DNA of 64,000 nt from Halobaculum halobium. GTDB taxonomy: Archaea; Halobacteriota; Halobacteria; Halobacteriales; Haloferacaceae. The stretch is from contig NZ_CP126158.1 in the NCBI RefSeq assembly GCF_030127145.1, positions 682,001-746,000 on the forward strand. Reading direction: 5' to 3'. Shown piece after piece: positions 8,111 through 27,541 of the stretch (positions are counted from its first letter, which is position 1; each line of letters opens with the position of its first letter). Both the position numbers and the translations under genes were made by a program. The notes under the pieces are model-generated. The model saw only the letters and a list, made by a program, of their open reading frames with translations. It was not told the origin of the DNA and made no database searches.

Positions 8111-9827
8111 CGCGCACCTCCTCGGCGGCGTCGTCACGCCCGCCGTCAGCGACCGCCTCGCCCGCCGTCTTCCCCGCGTCACCCGGGCGGGTGAGCGGGA
8201 TCGCTGCCGCCTCCTCCTTGCGGTGTCCGAGTAGCCCCTCGGGTCGCCGCTGCATCAGCATCACGAGGATGACGCCGACGAGGATGAACCGAAGCGCAGA
8301 GACGTTGTCGAGCAGGAACGCGAGGAACGGGAGCACCTCGCCCTCGAGGAACGGCGCGACCGCCGCCGGGAACGTGCTCGGCGTGTCACCGAAGCTGACG
8401 TAGTTGGTGACGACCCGCCGGACGTACACCGGCCCCTCCCAGATGGCGCCTGCAAACAGCGCGCCGCCGAGGACGCTGCCGGTGTTCGAGCCGGCGCCAC
8501 CGATGATGAGCGCGACCCAGATGTAGAACGTGATGATCGGCCGGAAGGCGCCGGGATTGGTGAACCCCTGGCTCCCCTGCCAGAGGATGCCGCCCAGCCC
8601 CATCAGCCCGCAGCCGAACATGAACGCGACGATCTTGAAGCGATTCGTATCCTTCCCGAGCGACTTCGCGACCATCTCGTCTTCGCGGATCGCCTTGAGC
8701 ACGCGACCGAACGGTGAGTTCCCCGTGCGCACGAGCAGGACGTAGAACAGCCCGACGAACCCGGCGAGCACCACGACGTACGCCCAGTTGTTGATAACCG
8801 ACGGCTGGATCGCCAGATCGAGGGTGAACGCCGGAAGCGAGACGATCCCGAGCCACGACGATCCCGGCGGGATCAGCTCGATCCGGAGGTCGCCGAACAG
8901 CGGAAACAGGATAGACCCCAACAGCGCGGGCTCCGCGCCGGCGCCGAAGCCGTCATAAAAGAGGAGTCGGACCGGATTCCCCGGCATCGTGATGCCGGTC
9001 GCGCCGCCGGTGCCGGTCGTCACGCCGGCGATCGTGAACTCTTGGAGCGTCCGGGAGTTGAGCGTGAGCCGGATGATCTCCGAGAGCGCGACGGTGACGA
9101 TCGCGAAGTAGTCCGCCCGCAACCGGAGCGCCGGGAGCGCGGCAAGCAGCCCGACGAACGCGGCGGCGAGCACGCCCCCGAGGATCCCGATCGGGAGCGG
9201 AAGCCCCAGTCCGGGAATCGACGTCGCACTGGCCTCCGCCGGCGACGAGAGGATCGCCATCACGTACACGCCGACGGCCATGAAGCCGGCGATGCCGATG
9301 TTGAACACCCCAGCGTACCCCCAGTGGAGGTTGAGCGCTAACACCATCATCGCGTACACGGCCGTGAAGAACAGCACCGATCCGAGCGCGCCCATGAGCC
9401 CGTTGAACGGGAGTCCCAACGCGACGGCGAACACGAAGAAGACGACGACGACGTGCCCGAGGATGATGAGCAGCTTGTCGGCGTCCGACTCCATCCAGCG
9501 GTCCTCAAGCCACGTGACGTAGGGCTCGGCCGGCGGCGCCGTGGCGGCGTACAACACCGCGACGGTGACCGAGAGATAGACGAACCAGACGAGACTCCCG
9601 CCGATCGGGAGCGTTCCTAGGTCGAAGCCGGCCACGAGCGCGAACAGAACGCCCCCGACCAGCAGGTGGCCAAGCGCGGTCGCCCACGCGGTGGCTCCGC
9701 CCTCGTTCCACTGCCCCCGGAACCACTCGCGGTACGGCGTCCAGCCCGGGATCGCCCGGCTGGAACCGCCGCCGCCCGCGTCGCCGGCCGCTCCGCCTGC
9801 GTCGGCGGGCTCCGTCGAGGAACTCAC
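8108..9827 (-). CDS. livM: branched-chain amino acid-type ABC transporter permease LivM (no in-frame stop before livG)
   Basis: Membrane permease with about 10 helices and the LivM hallmark stretch LRADYFAIVTVALSEIIRLT, then GRVLKAIREDEMVAKSLG. The start overlaps the livH stop (ATGA). The recognisable protein ends with RRPEGLLGHRKEEAAAIPL and a hydrophilic tail that still has coding-type third-position GC up to the livG start. A TGA overlapping the livG ATG exists there but in another frame. In its own frame livM stays open through all of livG and joins livF in frame, giving an ORF to 6387 (1146 codons). A one-base loss in roughly 8112-8138 would explain this. The end given here is the expected, not the literal, stop. 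The transported solute (branched-chain amino acids, urea or similar) is not determined; no binding-protein gene is adjacent. Confidence 0.8.
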
Positions 9828-10921
9828 GCCGTCGTCACCCCCGAGAAGAGGCCCTCAGGCTTGAACAGCAGCACGAAGATCATGACGCCGAAGGCGGCGA
9901 CCGTCGAGAACTCGCTGGGGAGCCACACCAGCGAGATGCTCTGTGCGATGCCGATCGTGACCCCACCGAACATCGCCCCGTAGATGGAGCCGATGCCGCC
10001 GAGGATCACGGCCGCGAAGATCAACAGCAGGAGCACCCAGCCGAACTGGAAGTTCATGGTCCCGCGTTCGAGCGCGATGAGGAACCCGCCGGCGCCCGCG
10101 AGGCCGCCGCCGATGATCCACGTGAAGCGGACGACCCGCTCGGTCGGGATGCCGGTGACGCGAGCGAGGTCCTCGTTGTCTGCCATCGCGCGCATCGCCT
10201 TCCCGAGCTTCGTCGTCTGGAGCAGGAGGTGGACGCCGAGCATCAGGCCGGCTGCGATGACGACGAGCGTGACCTCGTGTCCACCGACGCCGAACCCGCC
10301 CGCGATCGCGAGATCGGGCACCGACTGCGCGTCGGTGAGCCCGCGGGTACGCTGCCCGAAGACGATGTAGATCACGTACCGAAGCGCCAGTGCGACCCCG
10401 ATAGAGGCGATGAGCAGCGAGATACCGCCCTCGTCGCGCATCGGCCTGTACACCAGTCGATCGATGACGAGCGAGAGGACGATTGTCGCGGCGGCCGCGA
10501 CGACCAGTCCCGCGACGACCGCGAGCGGGGTCGCGAACATCGTCACCCCCAGATCCCGCGTCGACACCGAGCCGATGAACAGCAGCGTCGTCAGGTCGAA
10601 CTGCCCGGCGCCCGCGAACAGCCACGTCACCGCCCAACCGGCGAACGCGCCGGAGGTGACGTAGTCGCCGTGGCCGAAGTTCGCGAAGTTCAGGATACTG
10701 TACGTCATCGAGAGTCCGACGCCCGCGAGCCCGATCGAGAGCCCAACTACGATCCCCTCCCACAGGAATCCGGCGAGTTGCGCGCCCGTGAGGCCTCCCG
10801 GCGCCGCGATCTGGCGGCCGAGGTCGAACACCAGGAACGCGATGATGCCGGCGACGATGAGGACGAACGGCCGAGAGGCGGCAAGGTCTCTGCCGCGTGA
10901 GTACGTTTCGCTAATGCCCAT
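9824..10921 (-). CDS. livH: branched-chain amino acid-type ABC transporter permease LivH
   Basis: 365 residues with eight or nine membrane helices. The family signatures are GLGLSMTYSILNFANFGHGD-like (here VGLSMTYSILNFANFGHGD), the EAA-like cytoplasmic segment GKAMRAMADNEDLARVTGI and the end AVILGGIGSIYGAMFGG. It is first gene of livH-M-G-F and pairs with LivM to make the membrane channel. Upstream are a TATA-like GGTTAAG (about 10960-10966) and a perfect palindrome at 10933-10947 between it and the start, where a repressor would block transcription. Confidence 0.92.
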   Translation of the reverse strand: MGISETYSRGRDLAASRPFVLIVAGIIAFLVFDLGRQIAAPGGLTGAQLAGFLWEGIVVGLSIGLAGVGLSMTYSILNFANFGHGDYVTSGAFAGWAVTWLFAGAGQFDLTTLLFIGSVSTRDLGVTMFATPLAVVAGLVVAAAATIVLSLVIDRLVYRPMRDEGGISLLIASIGVALALRYVIYIVFGQRTRGLTDAQSVPDLAIAGGFGVGGHEVTLVVIAAGLMLGVHLLLQTTKLGKAMRAMADNEDLARVTGIPTERVVRFTWIIGGGLAGAGGFLIALERGTMNFQFGWVLLLLIFAAVILGGIGSIYGAMFGGVTIGIAQSISLVWLPSEFSTVAAFGVMIFVLLFKPEGLFSGVTTA

Positions 10922-10932
10922 TGATATTCCTT

Positions 10933-10947
10933 CTCACGATTCGTGAG
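10933..10947. promoter_or_regulatory. palindrome in front of livH, putative operator
   Basis: CTCACGA-T-TCGTGAG is a perfect 7-1-7 inverted repeat 12 bases before the livH ATG, just downstream of a TATA-like GGTTAAG. This places it at or next to the expected transcription start. That position suits a dimeric repressor controlling the transporter. The regulator is not identified. Confidence 0.5.
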
Positions 10948-11071
10948 GTACCCCAACGCACTTAACCATTCTCTCACCCGCAGGACAGCGTCGTCGAGCC
11001 GACACGACTGTCGGCGTCCCCGACACTCGGAGCACAAGGGCCAAGCCAAGTCAGACCCTTCGAACCGGTGG

Positions 11072-11686
11072 ATGCCGGTCGATCCGTCGGACACCGACGC
11101 GCGTGATCGCGGGAGGCCCGCCAGCGACGAACGCGAGCCGAACCATGCCGGCGGCGTCACGGTCGAACCGGGCACGATGGACGACGTCGAGACCGTTGCC
11201 GACCTCTGGGTTCGTCTCGCGGACGGACAGCGATCCCACGGGACCCACCTCGCCGCCGCCGAGAACCGGCCGGCTGCCGCCGACGCGGCCGCGCGCGCGG
11301 TCGTCACCGGCGGCCTCGTCGTCGCTCGGGCGTCGGCCCCGGATCCGGACGAGAGCGGTGCGGACGCCGGCCTCCCGGACGAAGGGTCGAGGGGAGTCGT
11401 GGGGTTCGTCACGTTCGGGATCGAGTCGGGCCGCTACGACCTAGACGTGACCCGCGGGGCAGTGTACAACCTGTTCGTTCGCGAGGGGTATCGCGACGGC
11501 GGCGTCGGAGCAGAATTACTCGCGGCCGCCGAGTCGGCGCTCGCGGACGAGGGCGTCGACGTGGTCGCGCTCGAGGCGATGGCTGCGAACCGAGACGCGA
11601 GGCGATTCTATGAGCGGCACGGCTACGACGCCCACCGCATCGAACTAGAGAAGCCGGTGGACGGCGACGGAAGCGATAGCGATTAA
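11072..11686 (+). CDS. GNAT family N-acetyltransferase
   Basis: 204 residues from the ATG at 11072 (MPVDPSDTDARD); the open frame upstream of it overlaps the livH promoter region and is unlike coding sequence. The GNAT core is clear: motif A VYNLFVREGYRDGGVGAELLAAA with the acetyl-CoA loop R/Q-x-x-G-x-G/A in the variant REGYRDGGVGAE, and motif B NRDARRFYERHGY at the end. A 70-residue region before motif A has an acidic Asp/Gly-rich insertion. Substrate unknown. Its stop lies 29 bases before the tRNA. Confidence 0.8.
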   Translation: MPVDPSDTDARDRGRPASDEREPNHAGGVTVEPGTMDDVETVADLWVRLADGQRSHGTHLAAAENRPAAADAAARAVVTGGLVVARASAPDPDESGADAGLPDEGSRGVVGFVTFGIESGRYDLDVTRGAVYNLFVREGYRDGGVGAELLAAAESALADEGVDVVALEAMAANRDARRFYERHGYDAHRIELEKPVDGDGSDSD

Positions 11687-11715
11687 ACGGAGGACGCAGT
11701 ACGACCCCAGTACGC

Positions 11716-11789
11716 GCCGGGGGAGCATGGGCGGTGCATGCACTCGACTTGTAATCGAGACTTCGCGGGTTCGAATCCCGCCCCCGGCT
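11716..11789 (+). tRNA. tRNA-Thr (anticodon UGU)
   Basis: A complete cloverleaf can be drawn: acceptor GCCGGGG/CCCCGGC, D stem GCAT/ATGC, anticodon stem CTCGA/TCGAG with loop CTTGTAA (anticodon TGT at 11750-11752), variable ACTTC, T arm GCGGG-TTCGAAT-CCCGC, and discriminator T at 11789. CCA is not encoded and there is no intron. Positions 8-9 read GA instead of the usual U at 8, so the normal 8-14 tertiary pair is absent, though all stems are intact. No copy of its 3' end was seen elsewhere in the window. Confidence 0.93.
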
Positions 11790-11936
11790 TCTCCCCTGAC
11801 GGTTCGAAACCGGGAGCGGCGCGTGAACCGGCGTATTGAACCGAGCTGTCCGCGACCCGAGACCGTCCTCGATCGCGCGTTCACGTCCCGCTCACAGTCG
11901 CTATTTCCGCCTGCGTTTACGATTCACGTTCGCTGT

Positions 11937-19845: not shown

Positions 19846-19925
19846 CGGTCGCGTAGTCGGCCGGACGCGTAGCCAGCCGGTCGCGTAGTCAGTCGCTCTC
19901 GTAGTCAGTCGCTCTCGTCCCCGTC
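19846..19925. repeat. 16-base tandem repeat, about five imperfect units
   Basis: Units of 16 bases follow one another from 19846: CGGTCGCGTAGTCGGC, then CGGACGCGTAGCCAGC, CGGTCGCGTAGTCAGT, CGCTCTCGTAGTCAGT and a degenerate fifth. The array fills the gap between two convergent genes and runs into the last codons and stop of the DUF5305 gene (stop at 19905-19907). Confidence 0.8.
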
Positions 19926-21227
19926 GGAGCCGCCTTCTTCGCTATCGCCGTCCGTCTCTGTAGGCACGGGGTCTGCAGAGGGCTCCGGGTCCGGTTCGTG
20001 TCGCGTCTCGGGGTCGTCTCGTCCCTCGTCTCCGTCACTCTCGTGTCCGTCGACGATTGCGTCGTCACCGGCGGACGGGGCTCCGTCGTCGGAGGCCTCG
20101 CCACGGCTGTCGAGCGCTCCCGACAAGACCGAGGAGACGATACCCGGATCCGTCGATCCGAGACCCGGCCCGTCGGTCGCGGGCGGGGGGGCTCGATACG
20201 TGTACCGGTACTCGTCCGAGACGACGTGAAACGCGTCGCCGTCTGGCTCTTCAAGCACGGCGTTGTCCGTGTCAATCGCGAGGTTCACCAGATCCGCGAG
20301 CGAGCCGGCCTCGGCGGTGGGGCGGTCTCTCGCGTCCGGCGGGAGACGGACGGAGACGATCCACTGGTCGAACTCGGATCGGTCGTTCAGATACTCGAGG
20401 CGCGCACGCTCGGTGTCCGTCAGCGCCGGTCGCTCTCGCCCCGCGACGTACCCCAGCGCTCCGATCCCGACGAGTCCGACGACGAGTGCGGCCGGCCCGC
20501 CGATCGATCGAATCGGGCCGTACTCGCGTTCGACACGCTCGGAGACGGTCCGCTGAACCGGTTCCTCGATGCGTCCGGGGCCGGAGACAGTGTACGTATC
20601 TCCGTTCAACGCGATGGGGAGTCGGCTGGAGAACGAGAGCCGGCTGGTCGCCCCGCCGGTGGTCGACCGCTGGATCTCCACGTCGACGACCACCGCGACG
20701 GTCGTTTCGCCCGGGGCGGTTCCGACCTCCTCTTCGATCGCCGCGATCCGGTCGGCGACCTCGGAGGTGTTGACCGAGAACGCGACCGAGGCGGGTTCGT
20801 CGGCCGACGTGGCCGTTACCGCGTTCAACGGCCGGCTGTCGCTCCAGTAGGTAGTTTCCTCGTCAGTCGACTCGACCAACAGCGCCGTCGAGAGCGCGAT
20901 CGACGCGTTCCCGTCGATTCCGGGGGTGGCGACCGTGAACCTCCCGTCGAGGACGGGCGTGACCGTGCGGAAGAACGTCGACCGGTTCGTCAGCGTCGTC
21001 CCGACCGGGTACAGTGGGTTGTCGCGTGTCACCGTCGCCGAGTGGTCGAACGACCCGGTTGCGGTCCACGCCGTGGTCTGTCGCTCAACGGTCTCCGTCC
21101 CGGAGTCGACGTGGGCGGTGTACGTCGCCCAGACGCCGGCGGTTCCGATCGCGAACGAGACGACGAGTAACACCGTGAGCCACGACGACAGCGCCGACCG
21201 AACGCGGAGTCGCGTGGCCTCGTCCAT
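19905..21227 (-). CDS. DUF5305 family membrane-anchored exported protein
   Basis: 440 residues: an N-terminal membrane helix (residues 13-37, WLTVLLVVSFAIGTAGVWAT), an extracytoplasmic beta-rich region (40-230), a second helix (GGPAALVVGLVGIGALGYVAG, about 245-265), then a cytoplasmic domain of about 100 residues and an acidic low-complexity tail. This is the layout of DUF5305. Such proteins occur next to archaeal signal peptidases and DUF1102 proteins. It is last gene of the minus-strand group, 47 bases after the signal peptidase. It may be an accessory or anchor for exported fibre subunits (inference). Confidence 0.78.
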   Translation of the reverse strand: MDEATRLRVRSALSSWLTVLLVVSFAIGTAGVWATYTAHVDSGTETVERQTTAWTATGSFDHSATVTRDNPLYPVGTTLTNRSTFFRTVTPVLDGRFTVATPGIDGNASIALSTALLVESTDEETTYWSDSRPLNAVTATSADEPASVAFSVNTSEVADRIAAIEEEVGTAPGETTVAVVVDVEIQRSTTGGATSRLSFSSRLPIALNGDTYTVSGPGRIEEPVQRTVSERVEREYGPIRSIGGPAALVVGLVGIGALGYVAGRERPALTDTERARLEYLNDRSEFDQWIVSVRLPPDARDRPTAEAGSLADLVNLAIDTDNAVLEEPDGDAFHVVSDEYRYTYRAPPPATDGPGLGSTDPGIVSSVLSGALDSRGEASDDGAPSAGDDAIVDGHESDGDEGRDDPETRHEPDPEPSADPVPTETDGDSEEGGSDGDESD

Positions 21228-21274
21228 TACTCCCTGGTGTGGATGGATCAGTCATATGTCTGTTGGTGGATCTG

Positions 21275-22441
21275 TTATCGGGTCAACGATCGCCAGACCC
21301 TGGCGGTGACCGACCGATCGTGGCGGGAGTCGCGCGAGCGGATCCGCGTTCGGCCGCCGTCGATGAGGAGGAGCCCGAGCCCGTACAGCGTCCCGCCGAG
21401 CAGTCCGTCGATCGCGACGATCGGGAGCCACGGGTGCACGAGCGAGAGGTCGCGGATCACCGGCTCGGGGAGCACCGCGAGGTACCGGTGCTCGGCGACG
21501 TACCGTCGGTAGTAGCCGGTCTCCGCTGGCGCCGTGAGGGTGATCGATACCCGCGCCTCACCGCGTCCCTCGACGAACACGTGCTCGGGCGAGGTCGCGA
21601 CGCCGTCGCTGGCCGGGCGGACGTAGCTGTGGACCGGGACGAGCCCGGCGTTGGGGACGCGGTATTCGATCGTGGCGGACTCGCCCTGCCGGATGACGGT
21701 CGGGTTCTCGGAGTCGAACTCGGCGCTGACGATCCCGAACTGTTGGGTGCCGGCGGGGACGACCATCGCGGCGGTCGCGGAAACGACGACCATCCCCGCG
21801 AGCGCGACGAGGATAAGCCGCGTCGAGACGCCCTGGTCGCGGTCGGTCGACCTCGTTCGGTCGGGACCGCCAGAGTCGCCGCCGCGCAGCAGATCGACGA
21901 CGTACCCCAGCGCCGAGAGGGCCAAGACGATGTAGGCGATCCCCTGCGTGCCCAGCAGGGATCGGCTGCCGACGGTCGCGGCGACCCACCGTTGGGCACC
22001 GGAGAGGAGGCTCTGGATCCCCATAATCGCCGTCCCGAGTTCGGGGATCACGACCACGGCGCCGCCGATTTGCAGGGCGTGCGCGACGATCTGCGCGTCC
22101 TTCACCGGCGGTTCGTCGCCGTCTTGGTCGGTGAAGGGGTTGGCGTCACCGCGGGTGACGTAACCGCGGTCGGTCTCCTCGACGATCCGGTGTGTGGTGA
22201 GGCCGCCGCCGTTCAGTTCTTCGGCCTCAAAGGTGACCACGTCTCCTCGTTCGGGTTCCCCGGCTATCGCCGACGGAACGGCGATAAAGCCGTCGCCGGG
22301 CTCCATCGTCGGCTCCATGCTCCCCGTCTCGACGTAACTGAGGAGGATCGGCTGTCCGAGCACCTGCCCCGCGACCAGCGAGACGACGAAGGCGATCAGT
22401 AGGAGTTCGGAAGCGATCGTGAGGAGTCGACGGACGTCCAT
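21275..22441 (-). CDS. signal peptidase I, ER/SipW type, with C-terminal exported domain
   Basis: 388 residues. N-terminal helix 9-30, then the catalytic Ser in ETGSMEPTMEPGD (Ser41), His84 in LTTHRIVEE and Asp in RGDAN: a Ser-His(-Asp) enzyme, like archaeal, ER and SipW peptidases and unlike the Ser-Lys bacterial type. Two helices follow (about 120-135 and 160-180). After another helix (LILVALAGMVVVSATAAMVV) is a beta-rich outer domain of about 100 residues (ESATIEYRVPNAGLVPVHSY), then a last helix and a basic tail. The extra domain is unusual for the house-keeping enzyme and points to a dedicated peptidase for the neighbouring exported proteins. Confidence 0.85.
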   Translation of the reverse strand: MDVRRLLTIASELLLIAFVVSLVAGQVLGQPILLSYVETGSMEPTMEPGDGFIAVPSAIAGEPERGDVVTFEAEELNGGGLTTHRIVEETDRGYVTRGDANPFTDQDGDEPPVKDAQIVAHALQIGGAVVVIPELGTAIMGIQSLLSGAQRWVAATVGSRSLLGTQGIAYIVLALSALGYVVDLLRGGDSGGPDRTRSTDRDQGVSTRLILVALAGMVVVSATAAMVVPAGTQQFGIVSAEFDSENPTVIRQGESATIEYRVPNAGLVPVHSYVRPASDGVATSPEHVFVEGRGEARVSITLTAPAETGYYRRYVAEHRYLAVLPEPVIRDLSLVHPWLPIVAIDGLLGGTLYGLGLLLIDGGRTRIRSRDSRHDRSVTARVWRSLTR

Positions 22442-22544
22442 TCGCGTCGGTGACGTGTTCGTGTCGCTAAGTAAGAAGGCTCGGGTCGCTCGCGGTCCGA
22501 ACGACTGCCCGCGCCGAACGGCCGTGTGACGGTGAGCGGCCGGT

Positions 22545-23381
22545 TCACTCGTCGGCCACGGGGACGGCGTCGACGAGCACTGCCACGAAGGCGACGAGGA
22601 ACGCCAGCGAAAGCCCGAGGAAGTGGACGTACACGTTGACTACGGCGACGCCCGTCCCCAGTTCGGCCGGAAACCCGACGAACGGGTAGCCGAGAACCAG
22701 CACCGCTCCGAACGCGAACAACTCGAGCCAGCCCGAACCGCGGGCGGTCGAGTGAAACGCGGTGCCGCGGACATCGACGGCGACCATCGCCGCGTATCCG
22801 AGCGCACCGAGAGCGGCCGTCCCCGCCAGTGCCGTCGCCACAGCCGAGTGCGTCGGGAGGAGCACCGACACGAGCGCGAGGAGTGCGAGAAAGCCGACGG
22901 GCGCGTGATCGACGCTCACCTCGGGGTGTATTCGCCGCTCGGCGTACGCGGCCAGCAGTATCACGAGCAATCCGACGAACGCCATCGTCACGCCGGAGAA
23001 GCCGTAGCCGACGGCGTCGCGCGGGACGGCGAGGTTCAGCGCCGACAACGCCGGCGGGAACGCGAGCAGGTACGTCGCCGTCGCGACGAAAAACAGCCGG
23101 CGCGCGTCGGCCAGTACGGCGAGCACGTAGCCCGTCCCCGCGAGTAACGCGTACCCGAACACGTTCGAGAGGAGATGCGAGAGCGAGCGGTGGACGAAGT
23201 GAGCGGCGTACGCGGTGAGGAGCGTCGGCCGCTCGTAGGTGAAGACGTATTCCAGCTTGGTCTCCGCAGGCAGGAGAAACACGGCCACGAGCACGGCCGG
23301 GACCGCCGCGAGCCCGAGGCAGTCGGCGAGGCGTACCCGCTTCCGGAGCGTCGCTCGGAAGGAGTCGGGTGCGTCGTTCAT
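22545..23381 (-). CDS. rhomboid-like multi-span membrane protein, possible intramembrane serine protease
   Basis: 278 residues with six or seven predicted helices. Rhomboid-like marks are HRSLSHLLSNVFGY (residues 64-77, compare the HxxxHLxxN of rhomboids), GYGFSGVTMAFVG with the GxSG serine at 129, and a late helix with VYVHFLGLSLAF that supplies a histidine. Ser and His would form the dyad of an intramembrane protease. Overall similarity to well-known rhomboids is low by eye. It stands 103 bases from the peptidase gene, same strand. It could process neighbouring exported proteins or be an unrelated neighbour. Confidence 0.65.
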   Translation of the reverse strand: MNDAPDSFRATLRKRVRLADCLGLAAVPAVLVAVFLLPAETKLEYVFTYERPTLLTAYAAHFVHRSLSHLLSNVFGYALLAGTGYVLAVLADARRLFFVATATYLLAFPPALSALNLAVPRDAVGYGFSGVTMAFVGLLVILLAAYAERRIHPEVSVDHAPVGFLALLALVSVLLPTHSAVATALAGTAALGALGYAAMVAVDVRGTAFHSTARGSGWLELFAFGAVLVLGYPFVGFPAELGTGVAVVNVYVHFLGLSLAFLVAFVAVLVDAVPVADE

Positions 23382-23484
23382 CTGAGATCCGAGTGCGGGC
23401 GCAGGGGAGCGGTCATCGGAGGGCGTTCGTTCGACGTGTCACGCCGAATGGCATAACGGTTCGGTCCGCGAACCCGCCGCGCAG

Positions 23485-25053
23485 TTACCGAGGAACGCGC
23501 CGCGCGAGCACGAGCAGCGCCACGACGGTCGCGGCGACGAACGCGAGGCCGCCGACTTCGACGAGCCCGAGCCCGGCCGGTTCCTCGACGGGAGCCGCCG
23601 TGGCCGTGACCGCGGCCGCCGTCTCTCCGCCGGAGTCGGCCGCGGTCCCGACAGCGCCCGACGCGCTCTCGGTCCCGCCGACGGTCAAGATCCCGGCGGC
23701 CGTGCCGTCGACGACGACCGCGTACTCGCCGGCCGTCCCGGGCGTCACGTCGAACGTCACGGTCGTCGACTCACCGGCGTCGAGTTCGACCGTCCGCTCG
23801 GCGACCGCCTCGCCGTCGAGCGTGAGCGTGATCGTCTTCTCGCCCGGGGCCCGGCCGTCGTTGCCGACGCGGGCGGTCACGGTCGCCGACTCGTTCGCTT
23901 CGATCGACTCGGTCGACAGCGACGCCTCGGAGACGCCGATCGACGGGCGCAGCGCCGCGACGGTGAACGTCGAGAAGCCCGGCGTGTCCGCCTCGAAGAT
24001 GACGCGCTCGCCGGCCGCGTCGACGATCCGGACCGGCAGTGTCGAGGCCTCGCCGGTGCTCGTGCGGGTCACGGTCAGTTCCTCGGGCGCGACGCCGCGG
24101 TCCGCGAGGTACGCCCGCGAGACGCTGAATCGGACCGTCGCCGCCGAGACCGACCCCGACTCCGCCTCGGTCACTTCGACCGCACCGAGCGACGAGACGC
24201 CGACGGCATCCTCGCTGCCTAGCTCGGCGGTGGCCAACTCAAGCGAGATGGTGCTCCCGTTCGAGGCGGTCACGGCAATCGAGTCGAGCGTGAGGTTCGC
24301 CTGTCCCCCGTCGGCAGCGGACTCACCGTCGAGGGGCATCGCGTTCAGGTCGACCGTCGTTCGACCCTCCGTCGGTGCGTTGACGACCGTGACCGAGCGC
24401 TCGGTCGGACTCGGCGCGAACACCTGGACGGCCGTCCCGCCGTCGCTCGACGCGGTGTCGGCGTCGTCCTCGCTCGCGTCGCCGCCGGCGTCAGTGCTCG
24501 CCACGGATCCACCCCCGTCGGTGCTCGCGCCGTCCACGCCCTCGGGTTCGGCGACCGCCGCGTGCACCTGCACGTCGTCGATCAGGCCGTCGCCGCCGTC
24601 GCCGGTGGTGTCGACGAGGACGCCGACCGAGACGGACTGGTTCGGCCCGAGCGTGACGTTGTTCGCCTCCGAGTCGATGGGGTCGCCGTCGACGGTGAAC
24701 GTCACGGCGTCGGACTCGTCGGTGATCCAGACGTGCGCGTACCGCGAGCCGTTGTAGTGGATCTGAAAGACGTTCGCGAGCGTCGTGACGGCGTCGGGGT
24801 TGACGCCCTCGGCTTCGCCCGCGAGGTTCGGGTTCGAGGCGGTGAGGTCGACGACGAGTTCGTCGTTCTCGTCGAGGTAGGCGTAGTCGCCGTTGGGCGT
24901 CGTTGTGGGGGCAAGGGAGACGTCTTGGGTGATGGCGTCGGACTGTGAGAGGGCGAACGGCGCCGCGGCTGACGGGAACACGAGCGCTCCCGAGAGGGTG
25001 AGTAGGGCGAGGGCGGCGACGAGGCGTTTCATTCGGATTCTCTGGAAGCCCAT
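23485..25053 (-). CDS. large exported DUF1102-like protein with C-terminal membrane anchor
   Basis: 522 residues. Signal peptide (LVAALALLTLSGALVFPSAAA), then an N-terminal domain of about 140 residues whose features (NVFQIHYNGSRYAHVWITDE, VTLGPNQSVSVGVLV) parallel the DUF1102 protein upstream. An acidic Ser/Gly/Asp-rich linker (about 165-215) follows, then a region like a halophilic surface-protein module (AEELTVTRTSTGE style, FSTFTVAAL), a CARDB-like Ig domain (VTARVGNDGRAPGEKTITLTLDG) and a C-terminal helix VGGLAFVAATVVALLVLA ending in Arg. It is thus a surface protein anchored at its C-terminus, perhaps a fibre base or adapter. An alternative start is the ATG at 25032 (MKRLVAALALL). Confidence 0.78.
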   Translation of the reverse strand: MGFQRIRMKRLVAALALLTLSGALVFPSAAAPFALSQSDAITQDVSLAPTTTPNGDYAYLDENDELVVDLTASNPNLAGEAEGVNPDAVTTLANVFQIHYNGSRYAHVWITDESDAVTFTVDGDPIDSEANNVTLGPNQSVSVGVLVDTTGDGGDGLIDDVQVHAAVAEPEGVDGASTDGGGSVASTDAGGDASEDDADTASSDGGTAVQVFAPSPTERSVTVVNAPTEGRTTVDLNAMPLDGESAADGGQANLTLDSIAVTASNGSTISLELATAELGSEDAVGVSSLGAVEVTEAESGSVSAATVRFSVSRAYLADRGVAPEELTVTRTSTGEASTLPVRIVDAAGERVIFEADTPGFSTFTVAALRPSIGVSEASLSTESIEANESATVTARVGNDGRAPGEKTITLTLDGEAVAERTVELDAGESTTVTFDVTPGTAGEYAVVVDGTAAGILTVGGTESASGAVGTAADSGGETAAAVTATAAPVEEPAGLGLVEVGGLAFVAATVVALLVLARRVPR

Positions 25054-25119
25054 CGGCGGAGTCGAACCGCCTGAAACCGAAATGGGGAAGAATAATCTAA
25101 AAGCGTTCTATAACCGGGA

Positions 25120-25749
25120 TCAGGGACCTTTTCCAGCGTCGACCCACTCCTCGGTGAATCCGAGTACCCGAAGATCACCACTCACACTCGTTCCAGCGTC
25201 GTCCCCGTCCGTCACAAAGTACATGTCCGGCCGGAAAACATCACCAGGTTCAAGAACGTATGGATTACTGGTGGTGAAATCCCGGTTTCCTGCACGGTAG
25301 TTGGACGGGAGAGCAGTTGCCCCGTTAGGCTGTCCTGCATTAGCTACTGCATCATTGTAGATACCGAAGCCGATACCTTCGTCTTCAAGTTCCGTCTCAA
25401 TATTTCCTTCGAGGCTCTCTTCAGCAGAGTTAGCCGCTGATGCGTTTCCGTCATCAAGGAAGATCGCTGCATTTTGATCACCTTGATTCTGAATCGCAAA
25501 GACATCGTGGAATTCACTGGTTGCATCAGTATTCAGCTGGTCAAACCCTACTTCGAGCTCACCATTGTTAGCGAGAGATGAGTACTGACTACCCGCCGGA
25601 ACCATCCGGAGGTACGCATCCCCATCACCAACAACCGAGACAGAAACATCACGTTCTGCGCTCACACTACTAAACGCACCCGTACCCATTGCAGCGGCCG
25701 TACCGGCCGCGAGCGATCCCACACCTGCGATGAACTTTCGCCGTTCCAT
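25120..25749 (-). CDS. DUF1102 exported protein, candidate TasA/camelysin-like fibre subunit
   Basis: 209 residues. The N-terminus ERRKFIAGVGSLAAGTAAAM has a twin-arginine-like motif and a short hydrophobic core ending GTGAFSSVSAERDVSVSVVG. This Gly-x-x-Ala-Phe followed by a beta strand is like the GxxAxF region of SipW-dependent TasA/CalY precursors. The body is Asn/Gln/Gly-rich and beta-predicted (EFHDVFAIQNQGDQNAAIFL, YVLEPGDVFRPDMYF), with no membrane anchor. Codon use differs from neighbours: a 60-base line at 25381 has 29 G+C (48 percent by hand count) against 46 of 60 in the adjoining gene at 24001. That suggests recent transfer. Function as a fibre subunit is inference. Confidence 0.78.
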   Translation of the reverse strand: MERRKFIAGVGSLAAGTAAAMGTGAFSSVSAERDVSVSVVGDGDAYLRMVPAGSQYSSLANNGELEVGFDQLNTDATSEFHDVFAIQNQGDQNAAIFLDDGNASAANSAEESLEGNIETELEDEGIGFGIYNDAVANAGQPNGATALPSNYRAGNRDFTTSNPYVLEPGDVFRPDMYFVTDGDDAGTSVSGDLRVLGFTEEWVDAGKGP

Positions 25750-26129
25750 TGGTATTCACGCACACCGTTTCCGGGGTGTGCTCACTCACCCATACCAGGG
25801 GGGACATTACTGTATTGAGCCGTCAGAGCGATCGAAGGTTCGCGCTGTGATACCCGAAGCCCGGACCTGAAACGGGTTGCGCGCTCGATAACAGTACGAC
25901 TGTTGCTGACTCGTGGATCCCCGACATATCGCCTGAAAACCCCAGTATCTGGATATCAGGTGCGGTCTGATGGCGACGCCGATTTGTGATTCGAGGTCAA
26001 ATCAGGTGAAATAAAACCGAATCCTCACTGGAGATACTGGTGGTATTTAAACATCTTCGACCAGGTGACACTAAACGAAAATAACGATTACACTTATCTG
26101 CTGATAGGTGTCAGACAAATGTAGGCAAC
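25750..26129. other. low-GC divergent promoter region of the DUF1102/regulator cluster
   Basis: 380 bases without a gene. The part before the regulator is strikingly AT-rich: 21 of 60 bases are G or C in the line from 26041. TATA-like elements for the rightward regulator are ATTTAAAC (about 26043-26050) and ACTTATC (about 26093-26099), the latter about 30 bases before the ATG. AGGTGACACT (26073-26082) and AGGTGTCAGA (26106-26115) are similar 10-mers on either side of the second box, possible binding sites. The leftward gene has the nested hairpin described separately. Confidence 0.6.
25751..25796 (-). promoter_or_regulatory. nested inverted repeat in the 5' leader of the DUF1102 gene
   Basis: GCACACC (25760-25766) - 8 bases - GGTGTGC (25775-25781) is a perfect 7-base inverted repeat. 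Around it GGTAT (25751-25755) pairs with ATACC (25792-25796). It starts two bases upstream of the start codon at 25749. It could be an operator or, in RNA, a hairpin that hides the start codon. Confidence 0.55.
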
Positions 26130-26747
26130 ATGTCGGGAACGAAGCTGTCAGGCGGTGCCGACTCGGTCGCGGAACCGGGTGGACCTGACGAGGACGGGGA
26201 ACCGAGCCCCCCCGACGTCACGGAGGACGAGATCTTCGACGTGCTCTCCAATCGGCGCCGGCGGCACGCGCTGCACGCGATCGCGGGGGCCGAAAACGAG
26301 ACTCACGACCTGGGCGAGCTCTCCGAGCGCGTGGCCGCGTGGGAGAACGAGATCGACGTGGCCGAGGTGGACTACGCCGAGCGCAAACGGGTGTACACCG
26401 CGCTCCAGCAGTCGCACCTCCCGCGACTCGACGAAGTGGGGCTCGTCGAGTTCGACAAGGACCGCGGCACCGTCGACGCCACCCCCGCGCTGGAGGACGT
26501 GGAGATCTACCTCGACGTCGTCCGCGGCAACGAGATCCCCTGGAGCGAGTACTACCTCGGGCTCTCGGGCGTCTCGGCGGCGCTGCTGCTGGCCGTGTGG
26601 GTGAACGCGTTCCCGTTCACGATGGTGCCCGACCTCGGGTGGTTCGCGTTCGTCGTCGTCGCGTTCTCCGTCTCGGCGGCCGCGAACCGCTACTACTCGA
26701 GAGACATGAAACTCGGCGGCGACAGTTCGCCAGCGGAACTGGAGTGA
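26130..26747 (+). CDS. membrane-anchored HTH regulator (haloarchaeal DUF7344-like)
   Basis: 205 residues. Residues 30-130 form the HTH domain seen in many haloarchaea (DEIFDVLSNRRRRHALHAI, then ELSERVAAWENEIDVAEVDY, ERKRVYTALQQSHLPRLDEVGLVEFD). Two helices follow (GLSGVSAALLLAVWVNAF, GWFAFVVVAFSVSAAANRYY), so the DNA-binding part is tethered to the membrane on the inside. It is divergent from the DUF1102 gene and three bases upstream of another exported protein, so it probably controls this cluster. A membrane-bound regulator next to exported subunits would let it sense assembly or the envelope (inference). Confidence 0.8.
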   Translation: MSGTKLSGGADSVAEPGGPDEDGEPSPPDVTEDEIFDVLSNRRRRHALHAIAGAENETHDLGELSERVAAWENEIDVAEVDYAERKRVYTALQQSHLPRLDEVGLVEFDKDRGTVDATPALEDVEIYLDVVRGNEIPWSEYYLGLSGVSAALLLAVWVNAFPFTMVPDLGWFAFVVVAFSVSAAANRYYSRDMKLGGDSSPAELE

Positions 26748-26750
26748 CTC

Positions 26751-27260
26751 ATGGGACGAACCGCGCTCCGCGTCGTGCTGCTCGTGGTCATCGCCGCCGG
26801 CGTGAGCGGCGCGACCGTCGGGAGCGCCGGGTTCAGCGCCGTCGAAGCCGACCGCACCGTGAGCGTGAACGTCGTGGGGAACGACGAGGCGTACGTCGGC
26901 GTCGTCGCCTGCGAGAAGTCCGCTAATGCGGGGAATGGGAAGGGCCCCGTGCGCGTGTGGGTGACGAACCGCTACACCGACGAGATGACCGTGGAGTCGA
27001 TCACCAGCGACGACGCCGTCCGAAGGAACCCCGACCAGCGGCTCGGGACCGTCGATCCGGGCGAGCGTGAGCACCTCAACCCGGTGTTCGCGTCTGCGGT
27101 CTCCTCGGTGACCGTCGAGGTGTCCGCCGACGGCCTCGACGCGTCGGTCACGCGGACGGTCACCTCGAAGACGGACTGTCCGTTCTCGACGGGGAACGCC
27201 AACGGAAAGACGAACGCGTCGACCACCGCGACCGGAACCGCCACGAACGCCTCCGGTTGA
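26751..27260 (+). CDS. exported DUF1102-like protein, second candidate subunit
   Basis: 169 residues. After a basic start and hydrophobic core (RVVLLVVIAAGVSGATV) comes GSAGFSAVEADRTVSVNVVG, directly alignable to GTGAFSSVSAERDVSVSVVG of the DUF1102 protein 1 kb away; DEAYVGV likewise matches DAYLRM. A beta-rich domain follows (VRVWVTNRYTDEMTVESI, VTVEVSADGLDASVTRTV). Cysteines in VVACEKS and KTDCPFS could form a disulfide. The end is a Thr/Asn/Ala-rich tail (STTATGTATNASG), a likely glycosylated stretch. It follows the regulator by three bases and is cotranscribed. Confidence 0.75.
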   Translation: MGRTALRVVLLVVIAAGVSGATVGSAGFSAVEADRTVSVNVVGNDEAYVGVVACEKSANAGNGKGPVRVWVTNRYTDEMTVESITSDDAVRRNPDQRLGTVDPGEREHLNPVFASAVSSVTVEVSADGLDASVTRTVTSKTDCPFSTGNANGKTNASTTATGTATNASG

Positions 27261-27316
27261 TCGCCCCGACGCTCGACTATCGACGCCGTTTTTTGGTCGC
27301 CGTCTTCAGGAACGGT

Positions 27317-27541
27317 ATGCCCGCTCGCCGCCCGTACGACGACACCAAATCGCTGCTCGCGGCGATCCTCGGCGTTCCCGCGCTCGCCGGACTGGTGTAT
27401 TTCATGCTCGTCGCCGTCAACGTCGCGTGGCGCGAGTACGGACTCGCGGTCGGTGCCGTCGTCTTCGTCGTCGGCTTCGTCGGCCTCTCGTACGGCTCCT
27501 ACCGCGCCGTCGAACTGGTCCGCTCGTCGGGCGGCCGCTGA
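27317..27541 (+). CDS. small two-helix membrane protein
   Basis: 74 residues: LLAAILGVPALAGLVYFMLVAVNV and GLAVGAVVFVVGFVGLSYGSY are two membrane helices, with short charged ends. The chosen ATG at 27317 begins MPARRPYDDTKS. It lies 56 bases after the exported protein and could be the last gene of that unit. No family recognised. Confidence 0.6.
   Translation: MPARRPYDDTKSLLAAILGVPALAGLVYFMLVAVNVAWREYGLAVGAVVFVVGFVGLSYGSYRAVELVRSSGGR

Follow-up and report, generated by a model that had tools for sequence, protein, structure and literature searches.

A Tafi-like fimbria gene cluster in Halobaculum halobium and its candidate rhombosortase-like processing of a surface protein tail

Introduction

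The genome of Halobaculum halobium raises the question of what a cluster of genes for exported proteins builds at the cell surface, and why a rhomboid protease is encoded in its midst. The cluster lies in a 64,000-nucleotide stretch of DNA, referred to below as the window (NZ_CP126158.1, positions 682,001 to 746,000; G000:C1:682001-746000 in our numbering), within a 3.46 Mb haloarchaeal genome. It consists of eight open reading frames (ORFs), designated A to H: a DUF5305 membrane protein (A), a signal peptidase (B), a rhomboid-type protease (C), a large anchored protein (D), a pilin-like protein (E), a candidate regulator (F), a small exported protein (G), and a two-helix membrane protein (H). 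An original prediction, made without database searches, had grouped the same eight genes at the same places and proposed that they form a surface filament or matrix. As an overall explanation, we consider it probable that this is a Tafi-like fimbria cluster in which C, in a rhombosortase-like manner, processes the tail of D. The wider claim that haloarchaea have a rhomboid-based route of C-terminal sorting, made up of C and an E-x-x-G-[FILV] tail, separate from archaeosortase, and placing or releasing a surface protein of a Tafi-type fimbria, is in our judgement slightly favoured. The export of E through the twin-arginine translocation (Tat) pathway and the pairing of the rhomboid with the D tail are the most informative features of the cluster.

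The anchoring of haloarchaeal surface proteins is known mainly through archaeosortase, and in the part of the literature that was searched we know of no archaeal rhomboid-tail sorting system described to date. Such a system, if real, would reveal the means by which a cell without an outer membrane attaches or releases a donor-strand fimbria exported via Tat. A directly testable substrate is also at hand where the rhomboid has just one neighbouring partner that bears the tail; the identification of natural substrates of archaeal rhomboids has been named as future work (PMC11985538).

The pilin and the type of fibre

The sequence of E is that of a Tat-exported pilin. Its N-terminus carries a twin-arginine signal followed by GTG-AFSSVSAERDVSVSV, and among 66 homologues R3, R4, and A25 are invariant, F26 is conserved in at least 90%, and the segment GAF or SAF occurs in 63. 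When E was compared with solved structures by phmmer, the single match was 9p0a (E-value 3.2e-12), the Tafi pilus of Natrinema sp. J7-2 released in July 2025, and a profile of the 66 relatives matches the same entry with an E-value of 1.5e-34 over profile positions 1-183 of 197. On the curated NCBIfam models, E scores 65.9 bits for TafE (cut-off 155) and 46.6 bits for TafA (cut-off 190) and thus misses both. The 9p0a pilin likewise misses them, with 77.4 against 155 and 53.9 against 190, so that the TafA and TafE cut-offs cover only part of the kind. Because the proteins of the window score below the curated Taf cut-offs, we read its cluster as a divergent relative, or sister, of the Taf cluster. 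The kind of fibre is already known from the Tafi pilus structure of 2025 and the NCBIfam families TafA, TafC, TafE, and TafF, and what this cluster adds that merits pursuit is the pairing of the rhomboid with the tail.

For E, AlphaFold gave a model of moderate confidence (pLDDT 69.5), with core strands at about 81-93. Its closest folds include FimA, the Pyrobaculum bundling pili (7ueg), the Tafi pilus (9p0a), and the Sulfolobus thread, all of which are strand-donating pilins. This mode of assembly has been described for the Sulfolobus thread (PMC11607397). The resemblance of the model to such pilins suggests that E may polymerise into a fibre by donor-strand exchange.

Profile comparison shows E, G, and the first domain of D to be mutually homologous (hhalign 99.4% for D and E, and 99.2% for G and the E family). 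D matches Pfam DUF1102 over its cut-off (9.3e-8) and NCBIfam PGF-pre-PGF over its cut-off, and reaches 41.4 bits on TafF, below the cut-off; G matches TafC (3.7e-7) and TafA (4.7e-6), both below cut-off. The true start of D is probably the ATG at 25032, because its homologues begin MKR... or MRR.... Elsewhere in the same genome (L097:9429-17165), a 2578-residue protein begins with a TafE-like segment (50.7 bits).

These results bear on several earlier claims. The proposal of a filament gains support from the profile match to 9p0a and from the donor-strand pilins that are the best structural neighbours; the lack of any structural relation for the product of 25120-25749, which had been named as a refuting outcome, did not occur, as 7ueg and 9p0a are among its neighbours. 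The compact protein E had been taken for a beta-rich fibre subunit, in agreement with its homology to pilins, and its Tat signal had been missed. Three DUF1102-like proteins had been proposed: the description holds for D, and E and G have no Pfam DUF1102 match and fall below the Taf cut-offs. DUF1102 was accordingly rejected as a common label for the three.

The rhomboid and the C-terminal tail of D

C retains all the catalytic residues of a rhomboid, as the original prediction of a rhomboid-like gene would have it, while its pairing with the D tail had been passed over. The HxxxxHxxxN motif, the GxSG serine, and the histidine of TM6 are invariant in 18 homologues and present in most of about 75. 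The rhombosortase model TIGR03902 is matched by 17 of the 18 (best E-value 4.7e-5) and Pfam Rhomboid by five, which points weakly to rhombosortase as the nearest known family; the C profile gave only chance matches against solved structures. Four other Pfam rhomboids and archaeosortase A (ArtA) are encoded in the same genome.

The presence of C goes with a specific tail on D. The pattern was first seen on comparing D proteins: beside C their C-terminus has E-[PA]-x-G-[FIL] followed by a membrane helix and arginines (VEEPAGLGL...ARRVPR in the window), and in loci without C they mostly have the terminal membrane helix and lack the motif. A strict motif was then defined as E-x-x-G-[FILV] within the last 45 residues; one broken locus (L147) was excluded from the count, and two loci (L149 and L153), in which C adjoins D but is divergently placed, were re-scored by hand as C-positive. 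Of 68 loci with C, 58 have the strict motif; of 16 loci without C, none has it. In the held-out loci alone, most of them retrieved with C as the query after the pattern had been noticed on earlier loci, the counts are 41/49 and 0/8 (p = 8e-6, a Fisher value that overstates independence because the loci are related). Shuffled tails carry the motif in 10% of cases. Across all proteins of these loci that have a helix and a basic end at the C-terminus, it is found in 66 of 76 that adjoin C, in none of 52 in loci without C, and in 4 of 60 located farther from C, all four being D-family proteins 1.7-3.6 kb away. On the peptidase tree C changes about eight times and the motif never moves in the opposite direction.

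The tail does not belong to a curated sorting family. Seven D tails gave no match to the GlyGly-CTERM model TIGR03501 at E-values up to 10, and no curated CTERM family was matched over its cut-off. A PGF motif was not found before the C-terminal helix of D, where the tail reads EEPAGLGL, and PGF-CTERM was not matched despite the PGF-pre-PGF domain.

In four Halorubrum loci (L137, L142, L148, and L168), C-type rhomboids stand beside or near giant D-family proteins of 1306-2861 residues, which also end in an E-x-x-G-[FILV] tail.

The signal peptidase and conservation across Halobacteria

B is an S26 signal peptidase with 59.2 bits on the archaeal model TIGR02228 (cut-off 51.85). Its active site is of the Ser-His type: S41 and H84 are invariant in 128 homologues and D99 is invariant or nearly so. 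In this respect the SipW-type peptidase that had been proposed is borne out, and the label SipW in the strict sense is not, since B scores 32.8 bits against a cut-off of 190 on that equivalog model. TasA has a phenylalanine at P2' and is cleaved by the dedicated ER-type peptidase SipW (PMC10269814); from this analogy and the conserved Ala25-Phe26 of E, B would be expected to cut E before Ala25 and may be dedicated to the pilin.

Homologues of B occur in 197 of 242 Halobacteria genomes. Their neighbourhoods were counted for 41 of them, the window included. In 39, there is a pilin-type or DUF1102-type gene no more than 8 kb away, the conserved co-occurrence with the peptidase in other genomes that had been proposed as a check, and in 34 DUF5305 follows directly downstream; F and G are each present in 36, and F is divergent and upstream in 33. 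Given these frequencies, the arrangement is not due to chance, and a core set recurs across Halobacteria. In another genome, locus L092 combines TafA, TafC, and TafE genes that exceed the cut-offs with a B-type peptidase and an F-type regulator; a window-type cluster (L091) lies in that genome too. In three further loci (L058, L059, and L061), D, C, B, A, F, and G are present and an E-type pilin was not detected nearby.

Proposed mechanism and alternative explanations

Starting from the genes, homologies, conserved order, catalytic residues, and tail-rhomboid association observed above, we infer the following course of fibre assembly and cleavage. The cluster would make a Tafi-like donor-strand fimbria. 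E would be exported via Tat and cut by B before or near the conserved A-F, and this cut would free an N-terminal strand able to complete a neighbouring subunit. D, whose first domain is pilin-like, would be a surface protein held at first by its C-terminal helix, until C recognises the E-x-x-G-[FILV] tail and cleaves at the membrane; as in rhombosortase-like sorting, D might then be handed to a lipid anchor or freed into the fibre. A may act as a membrane-bound assembly or base factor, F as a divergently encoded regulator, and G as a divergently encoded minor subunit. Cleavage of the D tail by a dedicated, rhombosortase-like C, which would anchor or release this fimbria surface protein, is the most plausible role of the pair. 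C would at most work like a rhombosortase, without being one by the curated model, because it scores 16.7 bits on TIGR03902, far under the cut-off of 84, because the region of its active serine reads SGVTM where rhombosortases have the signature SGMLH (PMC3237569), and because the tail is not a GlyGly-CTERM.

Besides this low score, several observations weigh against the proposal. The loci are related, and only six independent supported pairs could be formed; on average, 5.1 of these show the motif changing with C (sign test, median p 0.0625). Ten of the 68 C-bearing loci lack the strict motif, most of them having near variants. In L150, L164, and L203 the reading frame of D stops without a membrane helix, and in L055 a variant tail, EPAGG, occurs with no adjacent C, C-type rhomboids being encoded elsewhere in that genome. 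The confidence of the E model is only moderate, and both fibres and cleavage are predictions for this organism. The three loci with a helix-less D are of the Halomicrobium/Halosimplex type and keep C between D and B; a separate anchor, a frameshift, or another target of C possibly accounts for them.

An alternative that we regard as rather unlikely accepts the Tafi-like fimbria and assigns C a part in regulation or quality control, in which it would shed or degrade D at a motif that is just its ordinary cleavage site. Vibrio is reported to express a pair of active rhomboids, each with its own cleavage site in a substrate common to both (PMC11389362), and both the absence of the SGMLH signature from C and the failure of the tail to match GlyGly-CTERM, or any curated CTERM family over cut-off, would fit such a role. 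However, C is encoded beside its presumed target, the tail has the order motif, helix, and arginine, and the best-matching family is rhombosortase, all of which sorting explains better; moreover, the four other rhomboids of the genome could serve general quality control. Shared ancestry without any functional link could also associate C with the tail, since many of the loci come from Halorubrum and its close relatives and the test on independent pairs is borderline, but several lineages show joint changes of C and the motif, the latter recurs beside C paralogues on D-family proteins that differ greatly in size (up to 2861 residues), and in most loci without C, D keeps the membrane helix and not the motif, which makes this explanation quite improbable. 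A surface coat or loose matrix made of the exported proteins instead of a fibre, as the moderate E model and the sub-threshold Taf scores would permit, is very improbable, because the solved Tafi pilin falls below the same cut-offs and is homologous to E over nearly its full length.

Relation to known systems

The sorting and fimbria systems to which the cluster may be compared each share part of its features. With the Taf system it shares a homologous pilin that has a Tat signal and the segment GTG-AFSSV; E, D, and G all find a match among the Taf families, and the Taf locus L092 has the B-type peptidase and F-type regulator in common with it. Unlike that system, the window proteins lie under all Taf equivalog cut-offs, and window-type clusters add D with its CARDB and PGF-pre-PGF domains, C, and DUF5305, the last of which was not detected in L092. 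As in the SipW-TasA-TapA system of Bacillus, a Ser-His peptidase is encoded with beta-rich fibre subunits and a conserved A-F follows the presumed cleavage site, whereas E is exported with a Tat signal, B carries an additional outer domain and a larger number of membrane helices and scores far below cut-off for SipW, and no TapA homologue was recognised. The Pyrobaculum bundling pilus is likewise built of a donor-strand pilin and is a Foldseek match of the E model (E-value 3.9e-3), but the TM-scores are low (0.33-0.37) and 7ueg is not among the sequence-profile matches of E.

Where a bacterium has just one rhombosortase target, the genes for the enzyme and the target usually lie side by side (PMC3237569). 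Bacterial rhombosortase cleaves a tripartite tail, and in Vibrio a glycerophosphoethanolamine-containing group is then attached and keeps the protein on the surface (PMC6219818). The pair in the window resembles rhombosortase and GlyGly-CTERM (TIGR03902 and TIGR03501) in joining a rhomboid-type protease to an adjacent target with a motif, a helix, and a basic C-terminus; it differs in being archaeal, in the sub-threshold score and missing signature of C, and in a tail of the form E-x-x-G-[FILV] and not SGGS-like. Archaeosortase A and PGF-CTERM also process a tripartite tail in haloarchaea, D has the PGF-pre-PGF domain, and ArtA is encoded in the same genome, but D lacks the PGF motif and its paired protease is a rhomboid.

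Gene layout, accessory genes, and a related cluster

The features of the locus are collected in Table 1. E, D, C, B, and A form a minus-strand run with intergenic gaps of 47 to 103 bases, from which F, G, and H (26130-27541, plus strand) diverge across an AT-rich gap with a G+C fraction of 0.54 against about 0.68 in its surroundings.

Table 1. Features of the cluster, with positions in the window.
Feature	Position	Strand	Description	Evidence
A	19905..21227	-	DUF5305 membrane protein; all-beta outer domain flanked by two membrane helices; acidic cytosolic tail	Pfam 6.8e-52
B	21275..22441	-	ER/SipW-type (Ser-His) signal peptidase, 388 aa; extra extracytoplasmic domain and further membrane helices	TIGR02228, residues
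C	22545..23381	-	Rhomboid-fold intramembrane serine protease, rhombosortase-like (H64, H69, N73, G127-F-S129-G130, H253)	Catalytic residues, TIGR03902
D	23485..25053	-	Large anchored TafF/DUF1102-like protein with CARDB and PGF-pre-PGF domains	Pfam, NCBIfam, hhalign
Tail of D	23488..23589	-	Candidate sorting tail VEEPAGLGLVEVGGLAFVAATVVALLVLARRVPR (motif, membrane helix, arginines)	Present with adjacent rhomboid, not in loci without it
E	25120..25749	-	Tat-exported Tafi-like major or adapter pilin, 209 aa, MERRKF...GTG-AFSSVSAERDVSVSV	phmmer, profile, TafE, AlphaFold
Intergenic region between E and F	25750..26129	.	380 bp, AT-rich, divergent; presumed promoter region	Sequence
F	26130..26747	+	DUF7344 winged-helix-type protein with C-terminal membrane segments; candidate regulator, divergent from pilin genes	Pfam DUF7344 5.1e-29
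G	26751..27260	+	Small exported Taf-like protein; N-terminal segment GFSAVEADRTVSVNV in common with the pilin	NCBIfam, hhalign
H	27257..27541	+	Two-helix membrane protein; TTG start; overlaps G	4/41 loci

The assignment of A to DUF5305 is confirmed by Pfam. Its AlphaFold model is confident (pLDDT 94.1) and gave no significant match among folds in the Protein Data Bank (PDB); a role as a TapA-like chaperone gained no support from this search. F is a candidate regulator on account of its DUF7344 domain and divergent placement. The ORF of the two-helix protein H, which had been counted as part of the cluster, exists; being genus-restricted and having a TTG start, H probably lies outside the core set.

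In the plasmid records searched, no match to E and only distant matches to B were found. A related cluster is present elsewhere in the same genome (L096, G000:C1:96000-115900, genes at 8930-11874), comprising two E-type pilins together with a G-type gene and a DUF7344 gene that is divergent. No homologue of B or A was found in the 20 kb covered there, and this cluster may use the peptidase of the window.

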